Assembly: GCA_015067825.1 (NCBI GenBank)
Contig: SVLQ01000014.1
Location: forward strand, 1 to 64,000
Source of the DNA: Oscillospiraceae bacterium
Lineage (GTDB): Bacteria > Bacillota > Clostridia > Oscillospirales > QAMX01
Length of the DNA stretch: 64,000 nt
Reading direction: 5' to 3'
The position numbers were made by a program, and so were the translations under genes. The notes under the pieces are model-generated. The model was not told where the DNA came from. It did no database searches and worked only from the letters and a program-made list of their open reading frames with translations. Positions 18,016-33,647 of the stretch are shown here, one piece after another. Each line of letters begins with the position of its first letter. Position 1 is the stretch's first letter.

Positions 18016-20088
18016 ATGGCAAACGTCGACGCAAAATACGAAGCGCTCTTTACGCCGTGGAAGATCGGCAACGTCGAGATCAAAAACAGGATCGTCATGT
18101 GTCCGATGGGCGGCACCTCGCTGTTTGGCTGGATGGAGCACACGGGCAACCACTTCGACAAAGAAGCCGCAAAGTTCTTTCTGGAAAAGGCGCGCAACAA
18201 CGTCGGTCTGATCATCCCCGGCATCGCGCCGATCAAAAGCACTTTCATGAACCAATGGCTCTACCAGAACAAAAAGATGTTCAAAGAGCTGAAGGTCTTT
18301 ATGGACGAGCTGCACCAGACCGGTGCCAAGCTCTTCGTGCAGATCACCGCCGGCATGGGCCGTTCATGGGCGATCCCCACTCCGCTCGTGATGCTGCACA
18401 ACATGCCCATCGTGCGCGATCTGATCAAGCCGATCATCAACATTCCCTACCAGTCGGCGAGCCCGAGCGAACTGCCCAGCCGCTGGAGCGACAAGGTAAA
18501 GTGCCGCGCGATCACCGAAAAGGAGATCAAAAAGATCATCGAAGCCTTCGCCAAAACCGCCAAGCTCTGCAAAGAAGCCGGTGTCGACGGCGTGGAGGTG
18601 CACGCGGTCCACGAGGGCTATCTGCTCGACCAGTTTACGCTCAACTACACCAACAAACGCACCGACCAATGGGGCGGTTCGTTTGAAAACCGCTACCGCT
18701 TCCCGGTCGAGATCGTCAAGGCGATCAAGGCCTCCTGCGGCAGCGACTATCCGGTCTCGCTGCGCTACTCCGTGACCTCCAAGGTCAAGGATTTCTGCGT
18801 CGGCGCCGTTCCGGGTGAGGAATACACCGAGATCGGCCGTGATATGGAAGAAAGCGAACGCGCGGCGAAATATCTGCAGGACGCGGGCTACGATATGCTC
18901 AACGCCGACAACGGCACCTACGACTCGTGGTATTGGGCGCATCCGCCGATGTACATGCCGCAGAACTGCAACCTCGACGACGTCGCACACATCAAACAGT
19001 TCGTCGACATCCCGGTCGTCTGCGCGGGGCGCATGGAGCCCGACGTGGGCGCAAAAGCCGTTGCCGAAGGCAAGATCGACGCAGTCGGCGTGGCGCGCCA
19101 GTTCCTCGCGGACAGCGAGTGGGTGACCAAGCTGATCGAAAACCGCATGGAAGACATCCGCCCCTGCATCTGCTGCCACAACGCCTGCTTCAACATGTCG
19201 CACTACAAGGGCGTGGCCAACGCGCAGTCGATCTACGACGCCAGCCACATCGCCCGCTGCGCGCTCGATCCGCGCGTGATGCAATCGGAGAAATATAAGC
19301 TCGAACCGGCCAAAACGCAGAAAAAGATCGCCGTGATCGGCGGCGGTATCGGCGGCATGGAAGCCGCACTCGTTTGCGCCAAACGCGGCCATACCGTCAC
19401 CCTCTACGAACAGAGCGACTGTTTGGGCGGTGTGTTCATCGCGGCGGCCGCGCCCTCGTTCAAGGAAAAAGACCGCGCGCTGATCGCGTGGTACGTCCGC
19501 GAACTGCAGAAATATCCGCAGATCGCCGTCAAGCTCAACACCAAAGTCTCTGACGTCGCCGCGCTCGATGCCGACGAAGTGATCGTCGCTACCGGCGCGA
19601 AGGCGCGTAAGCTGCCGGTCAAGGGCGCGGAAAAAGCGATCGAAGCCGTTGACTACCTGCTGGAAAAGCCGGATGTCGGCGAAACCGTTGTCGTCGTCGG
19701 CGGCGGTCTGACCGGCTGTGAGATCGCATACGATCTCTATCTCGAAGGCAAAAAACCGGTGATCGTGGAGATGCAGAACGACCTCATCGTCGCCAAGGGC
19801 GTCTGCCTCGCCAACTCCAGCTATCTGCGCGATTTCTTTGCGGCCAACAAGGTCGAGGTCCACCTCGAGACCGCACTTTCCGAGATCACCGACAAGGGCG
19901 TCGTCGTCCGCACGAAATCGGGCGAGACCCAAACGATCGCCGCCGATTCGGTCATCCTCTCGGTCGGCTACACGCCCGCTCCCGTCGCCAAAAAACAGAA
20001 GCACGTCCACGTGATCGGCGACGCCAAAGCCGTAGGCAACCTGCGCACCGTCATTTGGGGCGCGTGGGACGTTTGCACCAAACTGTAA
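18016..20088 (+). CDS. Old-yellow-enzyme/FAD-NAD(P) oxidoreductase (enoate or dienoyl-CoA reductase type)
   Basis: A 690-residue protein. Residues 1-375 are an FMN-binding OYE barrel. C384, C387, C391 and C415 form the 4Fe-4S site seen in 2,4-dienoyl-CoA reductase and BaiCD-like enzymes. A FAD motif 'VIGGGIGGMEAA' begins near 440, and a nested NAD(P) motif 'VVGGGLTGCEIA' near 560. Electrons would pass from NAD(P)H via FAD and Fe-S to FMN to reduce an activated double bond. It is 12 bases upstream of the aconitase-X large-subunit gene, so it shares a pathway with a dehydratase. Substrate unknown. Confidence 0.92.
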   Translation: MANVDAKYEALFTPWKIGNVEIKNRIVMCPMGGTSLFGWMEHTGNHFDKEAAKFFLEKARNNVGLIIPGIAPIKSTFMNQWLYQNKKMFKELKVFMDELHQTGAKLFVQITAGMGRSWAIPTPLVMLHNMPIVRDLIKPIINIPYQSASPSELPSRWSDKVKCRAITEKEIKKIIEAFAKTAKLCKEAGVDGVEVHAVHEGYLLDQFTLNYTNKRTDQWGGSFENRYRFPVEIVKAIKASCGSDYPVSLRYSVTSKVKDFCVGAVPGEEYTEIGRDMEESERAAKYLQDAGYDMLNADNGTYDSWYWAHPPMYMPQNCNLDDVAHIKQFVDIPVVCAGRMEPDVGAKAVAEGKIDAVGVARQFLADSEWVTKLIENRMEDIRPCICCHNACFNMSHYKGVANAQSIYDASHIARCALDPRVMQSEKYKLEPAKTQKKIAVIGGGIGGMEAALVCAKRGHTVTLYEQSDCLGGVFIAAAAPSFKEKDRALIAWYVRELQKYPQIAVKLNTKVSDVAALDADEVIVATGAKARKLPVKGAEKAIEAVDYLLEKPDVGETVVVVGGGLTGCEIAYDLYLEGKKPVIVEMQNDLIVAKGVCLANSSYLRDFFAANKVEVHLETALSEITDKGVVVRTKSGETQTIAADSVILSVGYTPAPVAKKQKHVHVIGDAKAVGNLRTVIWGAWDVCTKL

Positions 20089-20100
20089 AGGAGAGCGTAT

Positions 20101-21375
20101 ATGTTTTTAACCGATGAACAACAGGCGATACTGAACGGCGAAAAGGGCGAGACCCTTTCGAAGGTCATGCAGACCGTCGTGCGCTACGGCGAACTGTTCG
20201 GTGCGACCAAGCTCGTGCCGGTGACGAGCAAGTATAACCACCTCGTCACCTCGTTCGGTCTGAAAATGATCGGGCCGGTCTACGACCTGATGAACGAGCT
20301 GATCGAAGCCGGAGCCGTCAGCGCCCAGCAGTTTTCCGCCGACCCGCGTCCGGTCGACAAAAACGTCCCCGCAAACTTCCTGCAGAAGCTGATCTTCAAC
20401 AAATTCATGTATTCCAAGCAGGATTTCTACGAAGGCCAGCTCAGAGAGCTCGGTCTGATGGAAAAAGACGCATTCTCCTGCGCTTGCTACCTCGACGAAG
20501 TCGGCAATACCCCGGCCAAGGGCGAAGTTTTGAGTTGGTCGGAATCCTCGGCCGTCGTCTACGCTAACTCCGTGCTCGGTGCGCGCTGCAACCGCAACTC
20601 CGGCATCATCGACATCATGGGCTCGATCGTCGGCTACGTCCCCTATTTTGGTCTCGTGACCGACGAGGGCCGCAAGGCGACGTGGGTCGTTGAGATCAAA
20701 ACGACCAAAAAGCCCGAAGCCCAGCTTTTGGGTTCGGCGATCGGCATGAAGGTGATGGAAGCCGTGCCGTACGTTAGGGGGCTGGACAAATGGCTCGGCA
20801 GCGAACTCGATGACGCGGCCCGCGCTTACCTCAAGGATTTCGGCGCCGCCACCGCCTCCAACGGTGCCGTCGGCCTCTACCACATCGACAATCTCACGCC
20901 CGAAGCCAAGGAGCTTGGCAGCGCGCTGATCGCCGAAAACGCCGCCACCTACGTCATCGACGACGCCGAGCTGCAGCGCGTCTACGACAGCTATCCGGTT
21001 GTTTGGAAGAACAAAGACGCCAAGCCGAAGCTCTGCTTTATGGGTTGCCCGCACATGAGCATGGAGCAGCTCAAGAGCTGGACCGACCGTTTGGAGACCG
21101 CGCTGAAGGCCGCCGGCAACAAAAAAGTGCAGATCCCCACGGTGTTCACGACCGCACCTGCCGTGCTCCGAGAGTTCAGCAAAACCGACTACGCCGCCCG
21201 CTTGAAGGCAATGGGCGTCGTCGTCTCCTACATCTGCCCGCTCATGTACATGAACAACCCGCTCTGCGGCAAGATGCCCGTCATCACCTCGTCGAACAAG
21301 CTCCGCACCTACACCACGGCGCGCTACTACACCGACGATGAGATCCTCGAGCAGATCACAAAAGGGGGTAAATGA
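20101..21375 (+). CDS. Aconitase X catalytic (large) subunit
   Basis: A 424-residue AcnX (DUF521) protein, with 'GATKLVPVTSKYNHLVTSFG', 'CYLDEVGN', 'VLGARCNRNSGIIDI' and 'CFMGCPHMS' supplying probable Fe-S and substrate residues. Characterised AcnX enzymes dehydrate cis-3-hydroxy-L-proline in bacteria or mevalonate 5-phosphate in archaea. Here the catalytic and swivel parts are separate genes that overlap by four bases (ATGA). AAAGGAG lies ahead of the start at 20101. Family is clear; the substrate is not, and the OYE neighbour is unusual. Confidence 0.88.
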   Translation: MFLTDEQQAILNGEKGETLSKVMQTVVRYGELFGATKLVPVTSKYNHLVTSFGLKMIGPVYDLMNELIEAGAVSAQQFSADPRPVDKNVPANFLQKLIFNKFMYSKQDFYEGQLRELGLMEKDAFSCACYLDEVGNTPAKGEVLSWSESSAVVYANSVLGARCNRNSGIIDIMGSIVGYVPYFGLVTDEGRKATWVVEIKTTKKPEAQLLGSAIGMKVMEAVPYVRGLDKWLGSELDDAARAYLKDFGAATASNGAVGLYHIDNLTPEAKELGSALIAENAATYVIDDAELQRVYDSYPVVWKNKDAKPKLCFMGCPHMSMEQLKSWTDRLETALKAAGNKKVQIPTVFTTAPAVLREFSKTDYAARLKAMGVVVSYICPLMYMNNPLCGKMPVITSSNKLRTYTTARYYTDDEILEQITKGGK

Positions 21376-21821
21376 AGATGAAAACTTTTCAGGGACGCGT
21401 CGTTGCCCCCGGCACCGTGACGGCCGAAGCGCTCGTTTCGCACGGCGGACTCAACACGCTCGCATCGTTCCAGAAGGCGCTGCAGTTCGGCGATAAAAAT
21501 GCCACCTGCGGCGACCAGAACAACCCCGACCTCTACGGCAAACAGATGGCCGGCAAGGCGCTCTGCCTGCCGCAGACGATCGGCTCGACCACCGGCGGTT
21601 TGGTTCTCTACTGCGCCTGCGCGATGGGCCGCCAGCCGGCGTGCATGCTCTTCTCGCAGCCGATCGATTCGCTCGCCGGCGCCGGTGTTATCCTCGCCGA
21701 TATTTGGCTCAAGGACGCGAAAATGCCGGTCATCGACTCGCTCGGCGAAGAATTTTTGCAATACGCCCAAACGGGCATGACCATCGAGATCAAAGAAAAC
21801 GGTACGGTCGTCGTCGGCTGA
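21372..21821 (+). CDS. Aconitase X swivel (small) subunit
   Basis: A 149-residue DUF126/AcnX small domain, with 'FQGRVVAPGTVTAEALVS', 'CGDQNNPDLYGKQMAGK', 'PQTIGSTTGG' and 'SQPIDSLAGAGVILAD'. It completes the active site of the large subunit. The start overlaps the large-subunit stop as ATGA, which implies translational coupling. A second in-frame ATG at 21378 is also possible. A strong terminator ends the operon. Confidence 0.9.
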   Translation: MKMKTFQGRVVAPGTVTAEALVSHGGLNTLASFQKALQFGDKNATCGDQNNPDLYGKQMAGKALCLPQTIGSTTGGLVLYCACAMGRQPACMLFSQPIDSLAGAGVILADIWLKDAKMPVIDSLGEEFLQYAQTGMTIEIKENGTVVVG

Positions 21822-21833
21822 GCTCCAAAGAAC

Positions 21834-21877
21834 AAAAAACAGGTCGGAATGCAAATGCATTCCGACCTGTTTTTTTA
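21834..21877 (+). terminator. Bidirectional terminator
   Basis: A 15-base perfect stem, ACAGGTCGGAATGCA (21839-21853) with its complement (21856-21870), and A and T runs on either side. It ends both the aconitase-X operon and the converging LuxR-type gene. Confidence 0.95.
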
Positions 21878-23548
21878 TCATTTTTCCGGATTCTGCTCGT
21901 CTTCGTGCATCAGCGCCGCACATCTGAGCAGCTGCTTGAGCGAGTTGACCCCCAGCTTGCCGTAGATATTCTGGTTATGGTAGCGGAGCGTACTCTCCTT
22001 GATCCCGGCGATCTCGATAATTTCCTTCACGCTTTTGCCGGAGAGATAGTAGTCGAAGATCCGCCGCTCCGTCGGCGTCAGGCGGTCGATGCCCTCCAAA
22101 AACTGCCGATAGTCGGCGGGATCGATCTCGTTTTTGCGGTCGTAGGCGAGGCGGGCGATCTCGGCACGCGCCGTCTCGTACTGGTTCTGTGCGGCCGCAA
22201 ACTCCCGTTGCAAACGCTCTTTTTCCGCTTGGGCAAGCTCTTTTTCCCGCAGCAGCACCGAAAGCGCATCCTCGCGGTCCCGGTCCTTTTCGGCCAAGAA
22301 GCGGAAAAGGTCGTCGATCTCGGGGATCTCCGTCTGCGCATCGGTATGGGCGTCGGATTTCAGCTTTTCCAATCCGCGCAGGATCGGCGAAAGATAGCGG
22401 CGGCTGAAAAAGAGGCAGCAGCTGACACAGAAAAATCCCAGCAACGCCAGCAGCACCAAGAATTGCGCCCGTGTCTGCGCAATTTCGCGGTCGTAATCCG
22501 ACTGCCGAATCATCACCGCCAGCAAAAACGGCGGATTGTTCGGCGTTGGCTCATAGTGACGCAAAAGGCCGATATACGTAGTATCGCCGTCGGACACCGT
22601 CGCAAGGCTGCCGCGCTGCTCCATGGTCATCTGCGCATCCGGCACCAGTCCGCACCCATCGGAAGACCCGCAGAAGAGTCCTTTCTGCGCATCGAGTGTA
22701 TCGCCGTCGGGAACAACCATACACGTCAGTGAGGAGAGCTTCGTCGGCTGCGCGTGATAGGCCGTAAAATAACTCGTGCTGACCTCGTAGCCGCAGACGC
22801 CGTAGAACACACCGTCGGCACCGACGATCGGAGCGGTCATCAGCACCGCCTCGTCCGAAGTCCCCGGCAAAACAAAGCGGTCGGTCAGCAGATAGGACTC
22901 AACGTGCGTTTTTTCGGCGCAGGCACACAGCTCCCGGTAATTCGGGAACAGGTCGGTACGAAACTCCAGCCGCCATTTCCGATGCGGCATGATCCCAAAC
23001 TCTTTGCCGAGCTCAGCCGGTCCGCGGTACAGAAGTAAACTTTCATCGGCGGAATCGCGATAGCCGTTTCGCTGCAGATAAAGCCCAACACGCGAATATT
23101 CGGCACCGGCCACGCCGCTGTTGACCGTCGCATCCAGCATAAAAAACACGCCCGAGCAATTTTCCTTCTGCATCGTCTCCTGCAAAGGCTCGATCCATTC
23201 CCTTTGGATCTGCTCCAGCCTTTGGGTATCGTCGTTCAGCGCGGTCAGGCCGATCTCTTCTTCCGCAAGATAATCGTCGAGATATCCGCTGATCGCATGC
23301 GAAAGTTGCAGACCGGCGGCGGCAAGGTTCTCAAAATGCGAGGAAACGTCTTTCTCAAAAATTTCCAACTGGATATCCAGCGCCTCGTGCGTCCGTTTTT
23401 CAACGCTGTCAAAAAGCTCGAAAAAGAGCAGGCCGCCCACTAGCGCCAAGAGCAAAAGCATTGTCAGCAGCAGCATGTAGCCAAACAGCTTGCGCCGCAA
23501 TGACCACGCAGAATAGTGAAATGCTTTCCATCCGTGCATGAAACCCAC
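21878..23548 (-). CDS. Membrane-anchored sensor with C-terminal LuxR-type helix-turn-helix
   Basis: A 556-residue protein. A first membrane helix spans about 22-45, and an extracytoplasmic region of about 315 residues resembles a Cache-like sensor. A second helix lies near 365-385 and a coiled coil follows ('REKELAQAEKERLQREFAAAQ'). The C-terminal LuxR/GerE-type HTH (about 490-545) reads 'LTPTERRIFDYYLSGKSVKEIIE'. It has no histidine kinase or receiver domain, so it looks like a one-piece membrane-bound transcription regulator. It lies 9 bases after the solute-binding lipoprotein gene, which may present ligand to it. Confidence 0.82.
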   Translation of the reverse strand: MGFMHGWKAFHYSAWSLRRKLFGYMLLLTMLLLLALVGGLLFFELFDSVEKRTHEALDIQLEIFEKDVSSHFENLAAAGLQLSHAISGYLDDYLAEEEIGLTALNDDTQRLEQIQREWIEPLQETMQKENCSGVFFMLDATVNSGVAGAEYSRVGLYLQRNGYRDSADESLLLYRGPAELGKEFGIMPHRKWRLEFRTDLFPNYRELCACAEKTHVESYLLTDRFVLPGTSDEAVLMTAPIVGADGVFYGVCGYEVSTSYFTAYHAQPTKLSSLTCMVVPDGDTLDAQKGLFCGSSDGCGLVPDAQMTMEQRGSLATVSDGDTTYIGLLRHYEPTPNNPPFLLAVMIRQSDYDREIAQTRAQFLVLLALLGFFCVSCCLFFSRRYLSPILRGLEKLKSDAHTDAQTEIPEIDDLFRFLAEKDRDREDALSVLLREKELAQAEKERLQREFAAAQNQYETARAEIARLAYDRKNEIDPADYRQFLEGIDRLTPTERRIFDYYLSGKSVKEIIEIAGIKESTLRYHNQNIYGKLGVNSLKQLLRCAALMHEDEQNPEK

Positions 23549-23557
23549 ACCTCCGCT

Positions 23558-24883
23558 TCAGCGGATCGAGCAGAAGAGCGCCCAGGTTTCCGCCGTCAGC
23601 GTATCGATCGCTTCACCGGCATCGGCACGCGCCTTCAGTACGGGCTGCAGCTCGCGCAAGCCGTCGTACAGCGCATTGACCTTATCGTAGTAGCCGGCAA
23701 AATCCGGACGCACGACGGGAACGTAGCCCTCGCGCATGGTTTTGATGGCGGCAAACAACGAAGCGTGGGCTTCGTCGGCGAAGTCGTAGGATTCGATCGC
23801 CGCAAACGCGTCGTTGTGTACAGGCATATAGCCGGTCTCAACCACGAAGTCCAGGTTGCGCTCGCCCGTGGTGAGCCAGCGGACGAATTCGCCCGCCGCC
23901 TCGGCCTTTTGATCGGTCGTCCGCATCGCACAGATGCCGACACCCGTCACAGGCATATACTGCACGCCGTCGCCGCTCTTCGGCAACGGCAGCACGATCA
24001 GATTGGTCGGTTCGGAGGTGTTATCGGGGTAGGTGACGGTTTCGTTGTAGTACGCGACCGCCGCGGTCGAGCCGATGCCGCCCAGCGTCTCACCGGTCAT
24101 GACCTGCGTATTCGCATACTGATCGGCCACGGCAATATGCCCCTTGGCCAGCGGCTCGGCAAATTTCATCCACGATTCGTAAAACGACGCGTCGGCCGCA
24201 TCGTACCAGCCGTCGGCGGTGTATCCGACCTCGCCGCGGCGCGCCATCATATCGAGCTCGACGTGGCGGATCAGGTAATCCAGTGCGCAGAACGGCTTGC
24301 CGCCCGACCACACGTAGTACTTCGCAGCGGCGTCGAAAAAGCCCTCCCATGTGGCAAGCGATTCGCAGGTCACACCGGTGTCGGCGGAAAAGCACGCAAA
24401 CTGCGAGCCGTTTAAGAAAAGCGCATAGCTCGACTTGGAGACCGGAAAGACCGCCAGCGAATCACCGATCATCCCATCTTCCAAAAACTGCGGCACAAAC
24501 GCTTCCAGCTCTTTTTCATCAAACTGCGTTTGCCAGTCGAGCAGAGATTCCTCGCCGAACTCGGTCGCCGTGATCGTGTGGGCGGAAAAGAGATCCGGCA
24601 GCTCCGGCACATTGGGACCGCCGGCCCGCGCTTCGACCAGCTGCGGCAGGATCTTGGACGTGCTCGTCACGTTGGTAACCGTGACCACGATCCCCTTTTC
24701 CTTGCCGACCGTCGCGTTGAACTCGGCAATCAGGCGGTTCATCGGTGAATCGGCCTGCTCGCCGTAAACGTGCCACATCGTCAAGGTGACGGGTTCATCG
24801 GGCGACAGCAACGACGCTTCGCCGCATCCAAACAAGGCGGTTGCCATCAGCACCGCCAACAAAAGCATCCATATTTTTCTCAT
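23558..24883 (-). CDS. ABC-type extracellular solute-binding lipoprotein (sugar family)
   Basis: A 441-residue family 1 solute-binding protein. The start at 24883 is set by GGAGGAA just upstream and by the signal sequence. The lipobox 'ALFGC' puts the lipid-modified cysteine at residue 20. 'TLTMWHVYGE...MNRLIAEFN' and 'VTVTNVTSTSKILPQL' are typical of carbohydrate-binding components. No permease or ATPase gene is adjacent; the next gene is a membrane LuxR-type regulator. It may therefore act in signalling rather than, or as well as, transport. Confidence 0.9.
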   Translation of the reverse strand: MRKIWMLLLAVLMATALFGCGEASLLSPDEPVTLTMWHVYGEQADSPMNRLIAEFNATVGKEKGIVVTVTNVTSTSKILPQLVEARAGGPNVPELPDLFSAHTITATEFGEESLLDWQTQFDEKELEAFVPQFLEDGMIGDSLAVFPVSKSSYALFLNGSQFACFSADTGVTCESLATWEGFFDAAAKYYVWSGGKPFCALDYLIRHVELDMMARRGEVGYTADGWYDAADASFYESWMKFAEPLAKGHIAVADQYANTQVMTGETLGGIGSTAAVAYYNETVTYPDNTSEPTNLIVLPLPKSGDGVQYMPVTGVGICAMRTTDQKAEAAGEFVRWLTTGERNLDFVVETGYMPVHNDAFAAIESYDFADEAHASLFAAIKTMREGYVPVVRPDFAGYYDKVNALYDGLRELQPVLKARADAGEAIDTLTAETWALFCSIR

Positions 24884-25149
24884 ACCGGGTTCCTCCTCGG
24901 CGGTCATCCGCCAAATCGGGCAGGAACAGAAGTTTTTTCTCCCCTCTTCCCCTCAATTTGCGGGGTATTGATGGGGACAAAACCTGCCGCGACGATTAAA
25001 ATAGTAGGTGCAAGCATGCTGAAGGAGGGATAAGGCATTGCCGGATAGGTCGATTGAAAAAAGGGCCCCGATTGTTCTGCGGTTTGCCGCCGCAAAGCAA
25101 TGATCTCCGACATCGCGCCAACGGGCGGAGATCCCCTTTTATCGATCAA
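24884..25149. other. Untranslated leader of the solute-binding lipoprotein gene
   Basis: About 260 bases lie between the minus-strand promoter and the start at 24883. It contains a GATCTCCG/CGGAGATC inverted repeat (25101-25132) and no gene that can be supported. The leader is long for this window and may be regulatory. Confidence 0.45.
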
Positions 25150-25178
25150 ATTATACCATATTTCCTTTGCATTCGCAA
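25150..25178 (-). promoter_or_regulatory. Promoter of the solute-binding protein/LuxR operon
   Basis: Minus-strand TTGCGA (25173-25178), 17 bases, TATAAT (25150-25155). Confidence 0.68.
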
Positions 25179-25232
25179 GGATAGCGTGCGGTTTTGGAAA
25201 ACATTGCCGTAATTTTGCAAGGAGGTGTGTCG

Positions 25233-25700
25233 ATGACGGAATCGGACATTGCCGCATTGGAGCGGGTGATTTTTGACCGTGGACACGGTTCGGCCTGGGG
25301 AAACCAGTTTTTTACCGAGCTTACAGCCAAAGAATTGGTCGTCACCCGTTTTTTTGATCCCGCCGATCCAACGCGCACTCTGCTCACCCGCACAAATCAA
25401 GTACTGGCACCGGAAGAGTGGCCGCAACTCACCGCAGCCATAGCCACACTTTTGCCGCACCTATCCCGAAACAAGAGGTTCTTGCGGCTGTTTGTCCGCA
25501 AGAATTTTCCCGCCGCATCCGATGGTACGGCGTATCGCAGGCTGACGATTTTCTTCCATAGAGGCCGTAAGCTCCACCGCTTTGACGCCGCGTTGCCCGC
25601 ATGCCCCGAGTCTGCCACACTCGAGCAATTGCTCGAACAAATGAGCCTGACCCGCTTCGCCGCGGAATCTCATACAAATAATTCCAAAAGAAAGGTTTGA
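25233..25700 (+). CDS. Hypothetical protein, first gene of the surface-protein cluster
   Basis: A 155-residue soluble protein with no signal peptide, membrane helix or motif I recognise. The start at 25233 is chosen because AAGGAGGT (25219-25226) precedes it by 6 bases. It has a mixed alpha/beta appearance, with a basic middle ('FLRLFVRKNF', 'RLTIFFHRGRKLHRF'). It is followed within 10 bases by the next hypothetical gene, so it probably belongs to the plus-strand unit that runs into the SLH genes. Confidence 0.7.
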   Translation: MTESDIAALERVIFDRGHGSAWGNQFFTELTAKELVVTRFFDPADPTRTLLTRTNQVLAPEEWPQLTAAIATLLPHLSRNKRFLRLFVRKNFPAASDGTAYRRLTIFFHRGRKLHRFDAALPACPESATLEQLLEQMSLTRFAAESHTNNSKRKV

Positions 25701-25710
25701 GGTGTACACT

Positions 25711-26262
25711 ATGAGTATTTTTGACAAGCTGAAGAACAAAGCAACCCAGGCCGTGCAGTCGCTCGGCAACAAAAGCGAGACCTTTACCTTCACGTCTCTG
25801 CCCGAAAGCCTTGCACAGATGAAGGCGCTGCCCGAAGCGAGCCTGAGCTCGCCCTATCAGACGGCCGCGCTGACGGTCTGCGCGCTGTGCGCCTACGCCG
25901 CCGACAAGCAGATCGGCACGGAGATGCTCAACTTCCTGCGCGGCCCGCGCCCGCTGAGCGGCGTCGACATTTCTTTCCTGAACGACCGTTTCCGCGACGG
26001 CCACCACGTCCCCTTCTCCTACTTCCAGGGCGCGACACCCGAAAACAACTACACGCCGTCCGAACCCTACACGGTGACCATCACGTCCAACCCCTATTCC
26101 GACGCCAACGAAGGCTACAAGAAGCTCTTTATCGCCAGCGGCGGCGCCGACAATCCGCGTGAGATCGTGCTGCGCAGAAAAGGAGACGGCACGTGGTGCC
26201 TTTGGGAGCAGTTCCTGCTCGTCAGTATCCGCAAAGCGCACGAGGACGATCCGTGGGCGTAA
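25711..26262 (+). CDS. Hypothetical protein, possibly DUF6935-like
   Basis: A 183-residue protein beginning 'MSIFDKLKNKATQAVQSLGNK', an amphipathic N-terminal helix. A helical bundle follows ('YQTAALTVCALCAYAADKQIG'), then a beta-rich half ('YTVTITSNPYSD', 'REIVLRRKGDGTWCLWEQFLLVSIRKAHEDDPWA'). I associate this layout with the DUF6935 group but cannot confirm it. The ATG at 25711 lies 6 bases after GAGGTG. The next gene overlaps its end by 10 bases, which argues for a joint function. Confidence 0.7.
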   Translation: MSIFDKLKNKATQAVQSLGNKSETFTFTSLPESLAQMKALPEASLSSPYQTAALTVCALCAYAADKQIGTEMLNFLRGPRPLSGVDISFLNDRFRDGHHVPFSYFQGATPENNYTPSEPYTVTITSNPYSDANEGYKKLFIASGGADNPREIVLRRKGDGTWCLWEQFLLVSIRKAHEDDPWA

Positions 26263-26841: not shown

Positions 26842-29169
26842 ATGAAAAAGAGAATTGTCAGCTTGCTGCTCTGCTGTGCGATGCTTTTGAGCCTCGCGCC
26901 GTTTGGTGCTGCAGCCGAAACGGTTCGCGTTTCGTACAGCAAAATCGACCCCTACATCTACTCCGGCGGTATTTTCGACGCGGAAGTCTACGTTTCGTCT
27001 TCCTCGCCCAATATCAGTTACCAGTGGCAGGCAGACGCCGCATTCGGCGACGGTCACTGGTTAGATTTGGAAGATAATCAGCGCTGGAAGGGCACGCAGA
27101 CGGCGCACCTGCAGCTCCTGACCGAGCCCAACAACGGCAACACCCTCGGCTCCGGTTGGGAGGACATTCCCTACCGCTGCCTGGTCACCGTCGACGGCAA
27201 GCATTATCCCACGCAGCCCTGCCACATCAACATCCTGCCGCTCGAGCAGCTCTTCGACGATATGGAACGCTCCGGTCAGGGTAACTTCCGTGCGTTCTTC
27301 GATGACGTTACGGTCACCGCTAGCAGCAGCACGCCCTTCTCCTGTGAAGCCGGCGAAAGCTTCTCGTTCCGTCTGGAAGATATCGGAGGCGGTTCGGATG
27401 CCAACACCTATCTGGAGGAATCCGAAGTCGTTTTCGTGCCTGAGATCATCGTGACCGAAGGTACCGAGGTCACCCGATACCGCGGTGAAGGCACCTACAT
27501 GCCCCGCACGATCGGCAAAAACACCGTTCAGGTGCAGTTTGTGCTGCGCATGGAGATCGGCGGCAACAAGATCGAAGAGGCCATCACGGAACAGACCAAC
27601 TACGTCAGCGTGGTCGCACCCAACGCGATCGGCTCGGCGCAGACCCGTTACGAGTTCTCGTTGCTCGAATATCCCTACAACCAGTCGAAGAAGCTGATCA
27701 CCGTACCGAAAAACGACGGTGTCATTCTGCTCGCACCGGCCGGTTCCAGTTGGTGGCTCGTTTCCTACAAAAATACGATCGGTTATGCCGCCACGTCTGC
27801 GCTGGTCATCAACCAGTTTATCGGCTCGGTCGACGTGCGCCTTGAGGCCCCTGTCGCCGGGAATGTCGCCGATTCCACGGTTGAAATTACCGACACGACC
27901 TATACGCAGCACAGCGTTGACTGGTACGACAAAACTGCCGGCAGTTTTTTGGATCCGGGCGACCGTTTTATCGCCGGCCACACCTACTCCGCCACCATTT
28001 GGCTCGAGGTTGCCGACGGTTGCCAGTTTACGACCGATCTTTCCGGCAACCCCACCGTTATCGGCAAGCTCAACGGAGAAGTCGTGGGCGTCCACCGCCC
28101 CTATGAACAGGATCCGAGTTATGTGATCGAGCTTGTAAAAACGTACGCTCCGCTCGCCAGCACCCATACCTGCCACCGCGTTTTGATCCCGAAGGTGGAA
28201 CCGACCTGTACCGAATCCGGCCGCGCCGCTTACTACCGCTGTGAATGCGGCAAGATCTACCTCAACGCTACCGGCGGTTCGCCTGTTTCTCTCAGCTCGG
28301 TCGCCATAATTCCGGCAACCGGTCACACCGAATCGGATTGGGTGGTCAGCGAATACAAGCACTACAAGAAGTGCACCGACTGCGGCATTCAGATCGCGGG
28401 GACGGAAGGCCAGCACAGCGGTGGTTCCGCCACGGTAAATGAAGGCCCAATCTGCGTGGTCTGCGGCACGGAATATGGTTCGCCGAATGCGCACACGCAC
28501 AACTTTGTTCCCAAGCAGAGCGAATACATGCACTGGGACGAGTGCACGAGCTGCGGCGTGATGGACCAGATGGAGCTTCACACATTCGTGAACGGCGTCT
28601 GCACCGAATGCGGAGCCAAAGAAGTCACCTACGACGACGTTTTCTTCACCGACGTTTCCAAAACGGCCTACTACTATGACGCCGTGATGTGGGCGGTAGA
28701 GGAAGGAATTACCACCGGCACCTCTGCGACCACCTTCAGCCCCAACGCCACCTGCTCTCGTGCGCAGGCCGTGACCTTCCTCTGGCGCGCGACCGGTTCG
28801 CCTGAACCTTCGGTATTCGCCAAGGCCTTTGCCGACGTTCCGGCCGGCGCATACTACGAAAAGGCCGTCAAATGGGCGGTTGGCAGCGACATCACCAACG
28901 GCACCTCCGCGACCACCTTCAGTCCGAATCTCGACTGCTCCCGCGGCCAGATCGTCACGCTCCTGTGGCGTATGTTCGGCTGCCCCGAAGTCTCCGGCAA
29001 TAACCCCTTCACCGATGTCCCCGCCAACGCTTACTACTACGACGCCGTGATGTGGGCGGTCGAACGCGGTATCACCAACGGCACCTCGGCGACCACCTTC
29101 AGCCCCAACGCAGTCTGTTCCCGCGGTCAGATCGTCACCTTCCTCTACCGCGCGATCAGCGGCAATTAA
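26842..29169 (+). CDS. SLH-domain surface protein 1
   Basis: A 775-residue secreted protein. A signal peptide of about 26 residues ends in 'FGAAA'. The long body is beta-rich and probably Ig-like. Residues about 450-595 hold several CxxC pairs in 'YYRCECGKIY', 'CTDCG', 'CVVCG' and 'CTSCG', resembling small zinc-ribbon repeats found in Clostridial surface proteins. Three SLH repeats end the protein (about 600-775), each with 'WAV..GIT.GTSATTFSPN', and would bind it to cell-wall polymer. The ATG at 26842 fits the signal peptide. It is followed by a paralogue with a nearly identical SLH region. Confidence 0.9.
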   Translation: MKKRIVSLLLCCAMLLSLAPFGAAAETVRVSYSKIDPYIYSGGIFDAEVYVSSSSPNISYQWQADAAFGDGHWLDLEDNQRWKGTQTAHLQLLTEPNNGNTLGSGWEDIPYRCLVTVDGKHYPTQPCHINILPLEQLFDDMERSGQGNFRAFFDDVTVTASSSTPFSCEAGESFSFRLEDIGGGSDANTYLEESEVVFVPEIIVTEGTEVTRYRGEGTYMPRTIGKNTVQVQFVLRMEIGGNKIEEAITEQTNYVSVVAPNAIGSAQTRYEFSLLEYPYNQSKKLITVPKNDGVILLAPAGSSWWLVSYKNTIGYAATSALVINQFIGSVDVRLEAPVAGNVADSTVEITDTTYTQHSVDWYDKTAGSFLDPGDRFIAGHTYSATIWLEVADGCQFTTDLSGNPTVIGKLNGEVVGVHRPYEQDPSYVIELVKTYAPLASTHTCHRVLIPKVEPTCTESGRAAYYRCECGKIYLNATGGSPVSLSSVAIIPATGHTESDWVVSEYKHYKKCTDCGIQIAGTEGQHSGGSATVNEGPICVVCGTEYGSPNAHTHNFVPKQSEYMHWDECTSCGVMDQMELHTFVNGVCTECGAKEVTYDDVFFTDVSKTAYYYDAVMWAVEEGITTGTSATTFSPNATCSRAQAVTFLWRATGSPEPSVFAKAFADVPAGAYYEKAVKWAVGSDITNGTSATTFSPNLDCSRGQIVTLLWRMFGCPEVSGNNPFTDVPANAYYYDAVMWAVERGITNGTSATTFSPNAVCSRGQIVTFLYRAISGN
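28643..29166 (+). repeat. SLH-coding direct repeat, copy 1
   Basis: This roughly 520-base segment encodes the three SLH units of surface protein 1. It is very similar at the DNA level to 31077-31600, with long identical stretches through the third unit. Confidence 0.85.
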
Positions 29170-29215: not shown

Positions 29216-31603
29216 ATGAAACGACGTCTTCTTTGCTTCCTTTTGTGTTTTTCATTTCTCTTCGCCCTGATGCCCCTGCCCGCACAAGCAACCTTCATCC
29301 CCTACGTTGAAGTCGGTATCACCCGTCCCGTCGTCGGCGGGCGGGCAATCCGCTACTGGAACGGCAACATCGAAGTCCCCGAAGACGCCCCGTACGAAGG
29401 CGTTTTCGTGAGCTATTGGCGGGACGAATACGGCAACGAGATCAACGACGAGAACTACCGCTTTGAAGCCAACCGCACCTATTCGATCAAGATCACCGTC
29501 CACACGGAATTGGCTGACGGTTTTACCACCGCAACCAAAATGCGCCTGAAGGATATCCCCACCTCGGCCTACTCGGTCCGGTTCGATAACTGCATCAACG
29601 GTTACCTTTCCTACGTCTTCACCTTCCGCCTCGGCGGAACCACGACCGATACCACAATCGACACGCTGCGTATCAGCGGTATCGGCACACCCCAGGTGTT
29701 GGGAACGCCGGCCGAAGAAGTGACGGTTACCTACAACAACACCAACGGCTACCACCTCTCCTGGCGCGGTGAATTCGATGCCGACGGCCGCTTCCGTGAC
29801 GGTTGGACCTATACGATGAAACTCACCGTCTACGCCGTCGACGGCTACAAATTCGCCACCGACGGTTCGCTCGACGTCACCATCGACGGCAAGCGCCCCG
29901 ACTATATCTCCAGCATCGGCAGAGCTGTCACCCTGACCAGCTACTACACGCTTCCGCCTTCCGATATCATCGGCTCCGTCTGCATTGAAGGACTGTGGCC
30001 GACCGCCGGCAGCTACGCGCATCCGTTGAAATCCGGCCAGCTCAAGGTCCCGTCCGATGCCAACTACAAGATCGACGATATCACCTACGAAGGCGTCTGG
30101 CACGACGAAAACGGCAAGGCAATGACCTCCAACGACCCGTTTATCTCCGGTCGGAAGTACTCCTACACCGTCTTCGTTTCACCCAAGAACCCCTTGACCC
30201 ATAAATTCAGCACCGATACCGCAGGCTATTTGAGCCACCATCCGTTCGACGCCTATTCGGCCAAGCAAGTTGCCTACAAGGACTATTCGAAGGAATATAC
30301 GCTCGGCTTCACCTACACCATCCTCTCGCGCCCCGCCACCGACAGTATTACCGACGTCAGCGTCTTTGAGATCGACGTACCCAAGGCCGGCCGCACGCCC
30401 GACATGCACTTTGCGCTCGGCAGCGCCGGATACTACCTGTACCCGACCGACGGCATGACCTGGACGGAAGACGGCTACAGCATGAATCCGACCGATACCT
30501 TCCGCGAAGGCCACCGCTACGCCGTTTCGATCTGGCTGCAGGCCAAGCCCGGCTACGAATTTGCCACCGGCGTTACCGGCAATCCCTCGGTTTCGGCCCG
30601 TTTTAACGGTGAGTCGATCAAGGTGAACCGCGCCTACGAACAGGATCCGTCGGACGTGATCGAGCTTTTCTACGATTTCGGCACGCTCCACACCCACCAG
30701 ATGACCGCGATCGCCCGCCTCGAACCCACCTGCACCGAAGACGGTCAGGAGGCGCACTATCTCTGCGTGACCTGCGGCAAGTTCTTTGCCGATGCCGCCG
30801 GATCGACCCAAATTGACCCCAAAACGTGGGGCGCGATCCCCGCACCCGGCCACACCGGCGGTACGGCAACCGTAACCGAGCTCGCCCACTGCGACGTCTG
30901 CGGTTCGCCCTACGGGGAATACGCCACCCACACGCATGAATACTACAGCAGTGCCCAGCTTTGGGAGCATTGGAAAGAATGCGCGATCTGCGGCGACATC
31001 ATCGACCTGGAATACCACCAGCTCAACGAGTACGGCAAATGTGAGGGCTGCGGTTTCATCGATCCGATGGCCTCGCCGTTCACCGACGTCAGTTCTTCTG
31101 CCTATTACTATGAGCCCGTTTTGTGGGCCGTTGCCTATGACATCACCACAGGTACCTCTGCTACCACCTTCAGCCCCGACGCCACCTGTTCTCGTGCGCA
31201 GGCCGTGACCTTCCTTTGGCGCGCAACCGGTTCACCCGATCCGTCGGTATTTGCCAAGACCTTTGCCGATGTTCCGGCCGGTGCGTATTACGAAAAAGCC
31301 GTCAAATGGGCGGTCGGCAGCAGCATCACCAACGGTACCTCCGCGACGACCTTCAGCCCGAACACCGACTGTTCCCGCGCTCAGATCGTCACGCTCCTGT
31401 GGCGTATGTTCGGCTGTCCCGAAGTCTCCGGCAAAAATCCCTTCACCGATGTCCCCGCCAACGCTTACTATTACGACGCTGTGATGTGGGCGGTTGAACG
31501 CGGTATCACCAACGGCACCTCGGCGACCACGTTCAGCCCCAACACCGTCTGTACGCGCGGTCAGATCGTCACCTTCCTCTTCCGCGCGATCAGCGGTGAA
31601 TAA
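29216..31603 (+). CDS. SLH-domain surface protein 2
   Basis: A 795-residue secreted protein. The signal peptide (about 26 residues) ends in 'PAQA'. Repeated beta-rich modules recur, marked by 'FREGHRYAVSIWLQAKPGYEFATGVTGNPS', matching a module of protein 1. A cysteine-rich stretch ('CVTCGKFF', 'CDVCG', 'CAICG', 'CEGCG') precedes three SLH repeats (about 620-795). GGAGG lies before the ATG, 46 bases after protein 1. The shared domain order shows that the two genes arose by duplication. Expected role: cell-wall-bound surface layer or adhesin component. Confidence 0.9.
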   Translation: MKRRLLCFLLCFSFLFALMPLPAQATFIPYVEVGITRPVVGGRAIRYWNGNIEVPEDAPYEGVFVSYWRDEYGNEINDENYRFEANRTYSIKITVHTELADGFTTATKMRLKDIPTSAYSVRFDNCINGYLSYVFTFRLGGTTTDTTIDTLRISGIGTPQVLGTPAEEVTVTYNNTNGYHLSWRGEFDADGRFRDGWTYTMKLTVYAVDGYKFATDGSLDVTIDGKRPDYISSIGRAVTLTSYYTLPPSDIIGSVCIEGLWPTAGSYAHPLKSGQLKVPSDANYKIDDITYEGVWHDENGKAMTSNDPFISGRKYSYTVFVSPKNPLTHKFSTDTAGYLSHHPFDAYSAKQVAYKDYSKEYTLGFTYTILSRPATDSITDVSVFEIDVPKAGRTPDMHFALGSAGYYLYPTDGMTWTEDGYSMNPTDTFREGHRYAVSIWLQAKPGYEFATGVTGNPSVSARFNGESIKVNRAYEQDPSDVIELFYDFGTLHTHQMTAIARLEPTCTEDGQEAHYLCVTCGKFFADAAGSTQIDPKTWGAIPAPGHTGGTATVTELAHCDVCGSPYGEYATHTHEYYSSAQLWEHWKECAICGDIIDLEYHQLNEYGKCEGCGFIDPMASPFTDVSSSAYYYEPVLWAVAYDITTGTSATTFSPDATCSRAQAVTFLWRATGSPDPSVFAKTFADVPAGAYYEKAVKWAVGSSITNGTSATTFSPNTDCSRAQIVTLLWRMFGCPEVSGKNPFTDVPANAYYYDAVMWAVERGITNGTSATTFSPNTVCTRGQIVTFLFRAISGE
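31077..31600 (+). repeat. SLH-coding direct repeat, copy 2
   Basis: The partner of 28643-29166, in the same orientation about 2.4 kb away. The low divergence suggests recent duplication or gene conversion. Confidence 0.85.
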
Positions 31604-31624: not shown

Positions 31625-33238
31625 ATGAAACAGAGAATTTGCAGCATTCTGCTGCTGGCCGCAGTTTTAGCCGGCGTCTTCCTCCTGCCCGCGGCCGCCA
31701 TTCCGGGGTTCCCGACCATCGTCCTGCAGCCGCAGAGCCCCCATTACCCGGAAGGCGGTGAGGCCGTCTATTCCGTCGAGGTCGAAAGCTACGATATGAG
31801 CTGCACGTGGTATCTGGACTACAACGGCGTGACCTACAACCTTTCCGACCCAAACGCGTCCAGACCGTGGAAAGAGCACGTCAGCGTTGCGTTTGGTGCG
31901 CGTGAAGACGGCAATGTCTTCAGCTATTTCTTCGACGGCATCGGTGCCGGGCTCAGCGGCAGCCGGATCTGGTGCGAGATCACCGACGGCGTGAACACCG
32001 TCCGCAGCCAAAACGCCTACATCACCGTGCAGGGCAGCGCCGAACCGCCCACGATCCTCTATGTCCCCTACGGCATTACGGTTGCCCTCAACGAGCCGCT
32101 GGATATTCCCTGTGTTGCTGCGGCTCCGGAAGGCCACCAGCTCACCTATATTTGGTACGAAACCACCACCGGCGAGCTCCCCGACATCAAGGCGTTGGAA
32201 GATGCCTCGATGTATTCCGATTATCTGACCTGTGATACCTCCGTGACCGGCACGCGTTACTACGTCTGCGGTGTCCAGACCGATGAAGGCGCCATGACCT
32301 ACAGCAACGTCATCGCCGTTACGGTCGAAGAGCCGCAGGCCGCGCCGCCGAAGATCCTGACCGATTCGCTTCCCAATGCCGTCGTCGGAGAATCCTACTC
32401 CGTCACGCTCGGTTGCACCGATCCCAACGCGATCTTCTACCCCTATCTTTCCCCCACCGGCCCCAACCAAATGGCCGATGCGGGACTGGAAATCACCTCG
32501 GACGGTGTCCTCTTTGGCACGCCTACAACCCCCGGCACCTATTCCTTCGCGATTTGCGCGATGGGTGCGGCAAACGAGGACTATAAGTTCTACACGCTCG
32601 TCGTCGAAGAAGCCGAAGTCTACTACCCGCCGGAAATCACCGTGCTTTCGATTTCTGACGCGACTGCGGACGAACCGTACGAATTCCAGCTCACCTGCTC
32701 CGAACCCAACGCGTTCTTCTACATCTATACCCTTACCGGTCCCACGGACTTTGAAAAAACCGGATTGAAGCTCTCCGAGGACGGTCTCCTCTCCGGCACC
32801 CCCACCACCCCCGGTACATATCGCTTCACAGTTTGCGCGATGGGCGCGCGTGACGAAGCCTACCGTGAATTCACCCTTACGGTTCACGCCCCCGAAACGA
32901 CTCCGGCCACTAATATCACCACACCCACAACCACCCTTCCGACCACGCCCGCACCGACAACCGAAGTGACCTCCGAGGCCACCACTCCGGCTACCACCCC
33001 GGCAACGTCCGAAACGACACCCGCACCGACCGGTGAGACCACACCTGCCGCGACCACGGTCGAAGCGGTCACCACTCCGGCAACCGAACCGGATGCCACA
33101 CAGACCACGCCGTCGGCTACTGAGCCGACCGAAGAACCCAAATCGGGGCTTCCGGTTTGGGCGGCGCCCGCGATCGGTGTTGCAGCTGCTGCCGCTGGTG
33201 TCGGCGGAACGCTGGTGTTCCTCAAAAAGCGCAAGTAG
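31625..33238 (+). CDS. Ig-like surface protein with Thr-rich stalk and C-terminal membrane anchor
   Basis: A 537-residue protein. The signal peptide (about 25 residues) ends in 'LPAAA'. Ig-like domains follow; two of them (about 240-335 and 336-425) are clear tandem copies with the putative-Ig signature 'GLL.GTPTTPGTY.F..CAMGA'. Residues about 428-505 form a Thr/Pro/Ala stalk of TTPATT-type repeats. A hydrophobic helix ends in KKRK. No LPxTG-type sorting motif precedes the helix, so the protein is held in the membrane. It is 22 bases after SLH gene 2 and probably part of the same operon. Confidence 0.88.
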   Translation: MKQRICSILLLAAVLAGVFLLPAAAIPGFPTIVLQPQSPHYPEGGEAVYSVEVESYDMSCTWYLDYNGVTYNLSDPNASRPWKEHVSVAFGAREDGNVFSYFFDGIGAGLSGSRIWCEITDGVNTVRSQNAYITVQGSAEPPTILYVPYGITVALNEPLDIPCVAAAPEGHQLTYIWYETTTGELPDIKALEDASMYSDYLTCDTSVTGTRYYVCGVQTDEGAMTYSNVIAVTVEEPQAAPPKILTDSLPNAVVGESYSVTLGCTDPNAIFYPYLSPTGPNQMADAGLEITSDGVLFGTPTTPGTYSFAICAMGAANEDYKFYTLVVEEAEVYYPPEITVLSISDATADEPYEFQLTCSEPNAFFYIYTLTGPTDFEKTGLKLSEDGLLSGTPTTPGTYRFTVCAMGARDEAYREFTLTVHAPETTPATNITTPTTTLPTTPAPTTEVTSEATTPATTPATSETTPAPTGETTPAATTVEAVTTPATEPDATQTTPSATEPTEEPKSGLPVWAAPAIGVAAAAAGVGGTLVFLKKRK

Positions 33239-33275
33239 AACACCCGAGCGGTCGGAGAGGAGTGATCGAATCCTT

Positions 33276-33647
33276 ATGGTAAACAAAGAAACCGCCGCCT
33301 ACAAAATCATCTCTGCCGCCGACGGCAATCGCTACTGTTTTTACTGCGATCTGTCCGGCGCAGCCATCTGCACGACAGGCCCATACCGCCGCCAGACACC
33401 CGAAGCCGAACTGATGGCCGCGTGGGAAACAGAAGGCCGCAGTCACTTCAACCACTGCAAAAAATGTGGGAAATGGGTTTCGGACACGATGTTCAACGCC
33501 GACGTACTCGAATGTGTCGCCTGTACGCCGTGGGAAAGCGATCTCAACTATTGTCCGCAGTGCGGGTATAAGCTCGATGCCGTAAGCCCATCCTGTCCCA
33601 ACTGCGGCGTATCGTTTTTTGACGAAGGAGGCCAAAACGATGCCTGA
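33276..33647 (+). CDS. Zinc-ribbon protein 1
   Basis: A 123-residue cytoplasmic protein. It carries CxxC pairs in 'CFYCD', 'CKKCGKW', 'CVAC', 'CPQCG' and 'CPNCG', which make up to two or three zinc ribbons around a short helical region. The ATG at 33276 is the first sensible start; GAGAGG lies about 15 bases upstream, so initiation may be weak. It overlaps the next gene by 8 bases. Proteins of this kind often act as scaffolds or regulators; no specific function is evident. Confidence 0.75.
   Translation: MVNKETAAYKIISAADGNRYCFYCDLSGAAICTTGPYRRQTPEAELMAAWETEGRSHFNHCKKCGKWVSDTMFNADVLECVACTPWESDLNYCPQCGYKLDAVSPSCPNCGVSFFDEGGQNDA

Follow-up and report, generated by a model that had tools for sequence, protein, structure and literature searches.

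How could a solute bound outside the cell act on a promoter inside it when neither a kinase nor a transporter is encoded nearby? This question is raised by a two-gene operon of an Oscillospiraceae bacterium (assembly GCA_015067825.1), in which the gene of a solute-binding protein (SBP) stands upstream of that of a membrane-bound LuxR-type regulator. The window analysed is a stretch of 64,000 nucleotides, positions 1 to 64,000 of contig SVLQ01000014.1, which is itself 92,881 bp long and part of a 2.71-Mb genome that is 98% complete. Both genes lie on the minus strand and form one operon, with 18 bp between the SBP stop (23558) and the regulator ATG (23539). The answer proposed here, which we hold to be likely, is a three-part kinase-free locus: the SBP would signal to a dCache sensor, the sensor to a LuxR helix-turn-helix (HTH) and the HTH to an operator, and a divergent operon would be activated.

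The orphan lipoprotein (23558..24883, minus strand, 441 amino acids) has a MalE/UgpB-like fold and matches the Pfam family SBP_bac_8 (E 5e-19), and the lipobox cysteine at residue 20 is invariant in 22 aligned relatives. Its AlphaFold model has a pLDDT (predicted local distance difference test) of 93 and resembles both oligosaccharide- and dinucleotide-binding proteins in Foldseek, the best match being 7bvt (E 1.7e-20). BPD_transp_1 permeases are absent from the contig, with 14 matches elsewhere in the genome. The original prediction had called this protein a sugar-binding lipoprotein without a permease; the second part stands for the contig, and "sugar-binding" can be kept as a suggestion at fold level only.

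The regulator (21878..23539, minus strand) is an open reading frame (ORF) of 553 amino acids counted from the ATG at 23539, which is preceded by a ribosome-binding site; the listed GTG start (23548) overlaps the Shine-Dalgarno sequence. Its sole Pfam match above cut-off is GerE/LuxR (residues 489-544 of the 556-residue form, E 3e-12, 46.3 bits against a cut-off of 23.5), and HisKA/HATPase, Response_reg receiver and ChiS-type hybrid sensor kinase domains were not found in the chain by the Pfam scan at cut-off. A canonical two-component reading was rejected on this ground. The AlphaFold model, built on a 52-row alignment (mean pLDDT 87, predicted template modelling score 0.66), places helices at residues 14-39, 346-394 and 406-465. 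From the N-terminus the chain comprises the first transmembrane helix, TM1 (residues 14-39, 23500-23423), an extracytoplasmic domain (residues 41-356, 23419-22472), TM2 (residues about 357-378), a coiled coil (residues 406-465, 22324-22145) and the HTH helices (residues 474-549, 22120-21893). The extracytoplasmic part consists in the model of a long helix and a two-module alpha/beta domain, and by this modelled structure it is a dCache-type ligand-binding domain, matching that of PctA (5t65_B; VIA Z 17.7, 3.3 Å across 228 residues) and 6d8v (Foldseek E 4.8e-7). Hydropathy indicates two transmembrane helices in most relatives, and the regulator itself has no N-terminal domain of 10-12 such helices. 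Model and Pfam thus agree with the original prediction, which had read an external sensor region, two membrane helices, a coiled coil and a LuxR HTH in one chain with neither kinase nor receiver. One relative (L050:1936-4203) carries about 230 extra residues beyond its HTH, and its downstream gene is response-regulator-like (start IVDDHESM), a possible link to a kinase system.

Pairing of the two genes was examined from both sides, in genomes that are mostly metagenome-assembled genomes (MAGs) with short contigs. A search for the regulator in 394 genomes of the order gave matches at E<=1e-6 in 53, many via the HTH alone. Twenty loci from this search contain 23 near-full-length regulators, and tblastn placed an SBP homologue immediately ahead of the regulator, in the same orientation, in 22 of the 22 that could be tested, L040 starting at a contig edge. 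No relative came out of a contig scan with the regulator protein alone. One SBP-alignment motif, scanned across 84,980 species genomes, gave 232 relatives, the best 80 of which were kept. A sensor homologue lies directly downstream of the SBP in 76/76 testable loci of these 80, four others (L084, L090, L096 and L130) ending too early to be counted; the HTH is visible in 75 of the 76 (L116 is cut by its contig), and the regulator is split by a frameshift or stop in three (L101, L113 and L118). Pairing was scored by tblastn and HMM (hidden Markov model) matches because the crude longest-ORF caller used for neighbour clustering picks antisense ORFs in GC-rich loci. The pair spans Clostridia to Desulfovibrio, its named carriers including Butyricicoccus pullicaecorum, Massiliimalia, Levyella, Anaerotignum, Oscillibacter, Frisingicoccus, Tepidanaerobacter, Thermincola, Syntrophomonas and Desulfovibrio. 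SBP and sensor distances are correlated across 70 pairs (r 0.935, versus 0.659 for SBP and HTH). A permease profile made from 23 permeases of pair-bearing genomes and searched within the fetched flanks matches one of the 80 best SBP loci, on the other strand (L063). The pairing that the original prediction had expected in other Clostridia is therefore borne out in both directions, and relatives with permeases and no LuxR gene, its counter-case, were not encountered among these 80 loci, the sole permease match standing beside an intact pair. Its reading of a binding-protein-dependent one-component transmembrane switch is supported at the level of sequence comparison, and a canonical transport reading was rejected for want of a permease on the contig and near all but one of these relatives.

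Some genomes hold several SBP-LuxR pairs, the two genes of each still adjacent, with four, three and two SBP places in G366 (L037-L039), G127 and G124, respectively. The paralogous SBPs of L066, L079 and L120 share only 33-35% identity. One pair comes from a Paludibacteraceae MAG record (L071), with start residues and lengths equal to those of L072 and L077 of Clostridia; it is probably a mis-binned contig.

The SBP-family profile marks 31 places in 25 of the 394 genomes. The 23 higher-scoring places are the 22 tblastn-tested LuxR pairs and one at a contig edge (G006). All eight lower-scoring places lie directly upstream of dCache sensors without a LuxR output, ending instead in GGDEF (2), GGDEF-EAL (4) or a hybrid histidine kinase (2), and the permease profile has no match in these eight loci. 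As SBP and dCache occur together with LuxR, GGDEF, GGDEF-EAL and kinase outputs, they appear to form a reusable input of which LuxR is one output; L131-L138 probably represent SBP-gated cyclic di-GMP (c-di-GMP) enzymes in the same order. These observations bear on the alternative that survives best, although it is unlikely, namely that the dCache domain detects a small ligand unaided and the SBP, never touching it, is merely co-expressed, for example scavenging for a distant permease. Domains of this type usually bind ligands directly, the structural matches above are ligand-bound chemoreceptor domains, and the 14 permease matches elsewhere in the genome could supply a partner. However, the strict pairing from Clostridia to Desulfovibrio, the co-divergence of SBP and sensor, the presence of the SBP even where a c-di-GMP enzyme or kinase replaces the LuxR output and the near absence of permeases from the 80 loci speak against this alternative.

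The candidate operator is an inverted repeat of TTGA type, GTCCCCATCAAT-N9-ATTGAGGGGAA (24947..24978, minus strand), found by inverted-repeat comparison. The strict pattern has one match in the 2.71-Mb genome (24949-24976), and a reversed-pattern control has none. The 400 bp preceding the SBP start were surveyed in 59 non-redundant cases; many of these contain an inverted repeat some 60-170 bp from the start codon, often with extra half-sites. Half-site and recognition helix go together: R..S[LM] helices accompany TTGA half-sites in 14 of 15 cases and GGGT in 0/15, and K..S[RK] helices accompany TTGA in two of 32, GGGT-type sites in 21 and AGTA in four (47 loci whose helix could be classified; Fisher p 5e-9 and 1.4e-5). 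On a tree of SBP and sensor, with the HTH left out, the helix type changes six times, and over five independent contrasts the half-site change is concordant in 4.8 on average and opposite in 0.0. The R-type helix of the window sits inside a K-type clade, and the operator there is of TTGA type. The covariation of helix and half-site supports the reading of the repeat as an operator bound by the HTH. Several points weigh against it. The operator classes were set after the sequences had been inspected, and a sign test over the tree contrasts, which are too few, gives a median p of 0.06. Twelve of the 59 promoters have unclassified HTHs and almost no operator matches, and the GGGT-type site is missing from 11 of the 32 K-type loci. 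The single genomic match of the strict pattern leaves no wider regulon visible, the K-type pattern across 26 genomes runs near the control level save at the island with seven-transmembrane (7TM) regulators described below, and the repeat can also be folded as an RNA hairpin. No operator arrays were found elsewhere in the fetched loci.

Transcription starts and promoters are predictions throughout. The predicted divergent promoter (24974..25002, plus strand, -10 box TAAAAT, start about 25009) has its -35 region, GGGACA, inside the operator, with a spacer of 17 bp (18 from GGGGAC); an independent consensus scan of the window recovered the same GGGACA-N17-TAAAAT. Among the 59 surveyed promoters, the operator edge could be fixed in 20, and an opposite-strand -10 box lies 17 bp (16 promoters) or 18 bp (4) from it in all 20, where shuffles expect 0.3. 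The operator centre falls near -44 relative to the divergent start. This is the class II position known for LuxR/NarL-type activators, and with the fixed distance of 17-18 bp it indicates a class II activator layout. The SBP-LuxR operon has a sigma-A-type promoter, TTGCGA-N17-TATAAT (25150..25178, minus strand), with 10/12 consensus matches and a TG extension. By prediction, the two transcripts share the stretch from about 25009 to 25143; activation of the target should therefore interfere with expression of the sensor.

The divergent transcript begins with a structured leader, a conserved three-way-junction RNA (25059..25145, plus strand) that lies in this shared stretch and is made up of GGGGUA, a variable stem P2, a stem P1 with a CGCGCCAACG loop, and CCGCCCC. 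Its covariance model score is 60.9 bits, the window sequence having been part of the model alignment. Over 21 loci, in a MAFFT alignment with a structure named by hand from some of the same sequences, pairing is retained in 85.7% of 414 cells, versus 70.6% in shuffles; double changes occur in 17 of 24 pairs and in 71 cells, versus 25.8 in shuffles, and none of 500 shuffles reaches the observed value on any measure. RNAalifold found no structure in a ragged leader alignment of 27 loci; in a shorter alignment of the divergent strand with the named structure, covariation was strong. At 26 bits or more the model matches 37 times in 72 loci, always on the strand opposite the SBP, with the near end 161-240 bp before the SBP start. 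Motif A (GGGGTACCCC), which has 13 exact copies in 1.11 Mb, all of them 191-223 bp ahead of an SBP start, was initially taken for a DNA palindrome and was dropped as such when it proved to be part of this RNA. Searched across 335 genomes of the order, the model gave 13 matches in 11 genomes: nine at SBP-LuxR pairs, three just upstream of 7TM-LuxR genes and one elsewhere. Rfam (window 24800-25800, E<=1) returned only a below-threshold snoRNA (small nucleolar RNA) at 25229-25294, outside the element, and for eight loci at gathering thresholds it returned nothing but RNase P. The RNA would thus represent an undescribed family absent from Rfam, and it is probably a leader or attenuator. On the other side, 35 of the 72 loci have no match of at least 26 bits, and the element can be folded on either strand, the divergent one being more stable in 18 of 27 loci and the sense one in 7. 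The remaining one of the 13 matches in the order (L160:1501-1559) is some 0.7 kb ahead of an SPFH-like gene of the type found in the island, in a 3-kb stretch with no membrane LuxR.

Which genes the switch would control is suggested by the divergent strand. The candidate targets begin with a gene of about 155 amino acids, with a ribosome-binding site and no Pfam family (25233..25700), followed by a DUF6935 protein (25714..26262; PF22043, E 4e-57) and a secreted protein with three C-terminal SLH domains (26842..29169). A second secreted SLH-domain protein (29216..31603), a secreted repeat protein without a Pfam match but with a C-terminal hydrophobic anchor-like segment (31625..33238) and a zinc-ribbon protein (33270..33647) follow on the same plus strand. 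The original prediction had left out this DUF6935/SLH neighbourhood, together with the operator, the divergent promoter and the structured RNA. In many relatives the gene directly divergent from the pair belongs to the cluster of this zinc-ribbon protein, which is present in 28 of 81 loci. DUF6935 was found in 12 of 17 pair-bearing genomes searched, and in 12/12 of these at most about 25 kb of contig lies between it and a pair. It occurs in 79 of the 394 genomes of the order and in 0/14 control genomes, and a full-text literature search found no paper that mentions it. A membrane LuxR of either kind is near DUF6935 in 21 of these 79 genomes, the 58 others lacking one partly because contigs are short.

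The second kind of regulator is a 7TM-LuxR protein, held by eight DUF6935 loci (L140-L147) that were preselected for a LuxR-HTH match on the same contig; two of these, scanned with Pfam, contain PF16927 (HisKA_7TM) and GerE. It occurs in 33 of the 394 genomes, 21 of which also have DUF6935; in 10 of these 21, no more than about 12 kb of the same contig separates the two. The 7TM-LuxR genes of L140-L147 and L036:6582-7793 stand beside DUF6935, SPFH-like and zinc-ribbon genes. L145 repeats the layout, with half-sites, GGGGAC-N18-TATAAT, the RNA, a Shine-Dalgarno sequence and a DUF4428 gene, and it has a second operator 17 bp from a TATAAT immediately before an SLH gene. The input module would hence be exchangeable, since SBP and dCache can drive c-di-GMP enzymes or kinases, and the same HTH type, operator and RNA occur under a 7TM sensor. 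We lean towards regarding these loci as an undescribed class of LuxR activators with swappable inputs (SBP-dCache or 7TM), a helix-matched operator, a divergent promoter and a new RNA family, controlling an envelope island of gut Clostridia (DUF6935, SPFH, DUF4428, zinc-ribbon, SLH).

Two further explanations concern the operator. The regulator might be a repressor that blocks the SBP-LuxR transcript, the divergent genes not being targets; the operator does lie downstream of the SBP-LuxR start and its half-sites reach toward the SBP start codon, but the conserved spacing to the divergent -10 box, the conserved direction of the divergent gene and the co-location of DUF6935 render this improbable, slightly more so than sensing by the dCache domain alone. 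The least probable is that the repeat is an element of the SBP leader RNA, a hairpin or anti-Shine-Dalgarno switch whose correlation with the HTH reflects shared ancestry. In favour of this, the repeat lies in the region transcribed from the predicted SBP promoter, its arms covary and independent contrasts are few. Against it, the half-site follows the HTH rather than SBP and sensor phylogeny in five such contrasts, additional half-sites occur in direct orientation, the opposite-strand -10 box keeps its 17-18 bp distance and the operator recurs before the SLH gene of a 7TM-LuxR locus.

The three-part switch would then work as follows. The secreted lipoprotein may bind an extracellular ligand, probably oligosaccharide-like, and contact the dCache domain, as strict pairing and co-divergence suggest; the signal would travel via TM2 and the coiled coil to the cytoplasmic HTH of the same chain, which would bind the inverted repeat upstream of the SBP gene. 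Since the operator overlaps the divergent -35 region, and given the spacing, the regulator bound there would most likely be a class II activator of the divergent DUF6935/SLH operon. The divergent transcript would open with the three-way-junction RNA and run against the SBP-LuxR leader, and switching on the target operon may dampen the sensor operon.

Parts of this arrangement are familiar. ToxR, CadC and TcpP are likewise described as holding sensor and HTH in one membrane-anchored chain, with another DNA-binding domain and sensor and no solute-binding partner. Chemoreceptors and sensor kinases are named as SBP-driven receptors in the part of PMC6321045 available. LuxP-LuxQ, TorT-TorS, XylFII-LytS and CuaD-CuaS-CuaR likewise have a dedicated binding protein that is encoded next to a membrane sensor or works with it and does not have to transport anything; according to the portions consulted (PMC6321045, PMC10384115), this protein touches the sensor's extracytoplasmic domain. 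The sensors of these systems are histidine kinases and depend on a response regulator, whereas here one chain holds both sensor and DNA-binding domain. The present pair shares with LuxPQ-like inputs a conserved gene for a dedicated binding protein and, in the model, a tandem PAS-like/dCache domain outside the cytoplasm, and LuxP-LuxQ is, with CBP-ChiS, the nearest precedent. The closest working principle is CBP-ChiS of Vibrio cholerae, in which a binding protein activates a DNA-binding membrane protein (PMC11856585, PMC8092284), the one precedent found for such an action (PMC11856585, in extract). In these extracts ChiS is a hybrid sensor kinase whose DNA-binding domain is of the ChiS family; the present regulator has a dCache domain, a coiled coil and a LuxR HTH, and is encoded with its SBP. 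DadR, HcdR and CadR of Coriobacteriia are likewise membrane LuxR-type activators beside their targets in gut bacteria, but the available sections describe an N-terminal polytopic sensor of 10-12 transmembrane helices and no dCache domain, in contrast to the two helices here (PMC9734109); "solute-binding" occurs 0 times in the main text of that paper. Full-text literature searches, as far as titles and the starts of abstracts show, returned no SBP-LuxR membrane pair. If widespread, the arrangement would be a compact kinase-free switch from outside to DNA whose operator code can be read, in gut bacteria with few known signals, and a potential tool for engineered sensors. For the conserved envelope island (DUF6935, SLH), the locus also supplies a regulator that can be tested and an RNA that is still unexplored.

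Downstream of the regulator, the operon ends at a strong predicted bidirectional terminator-like hairpin of 19 pairs (21834..21875, minus strand). It is met there by a convergent operon (18016-21821, plus strand) that encodes an OYE-like flavoenzyme, the nearest NCBIfam models of which, bilirubin reductase and BaiCD, both score below cut-off, and then an aconitase X whose large and swivel parts are separate genes.

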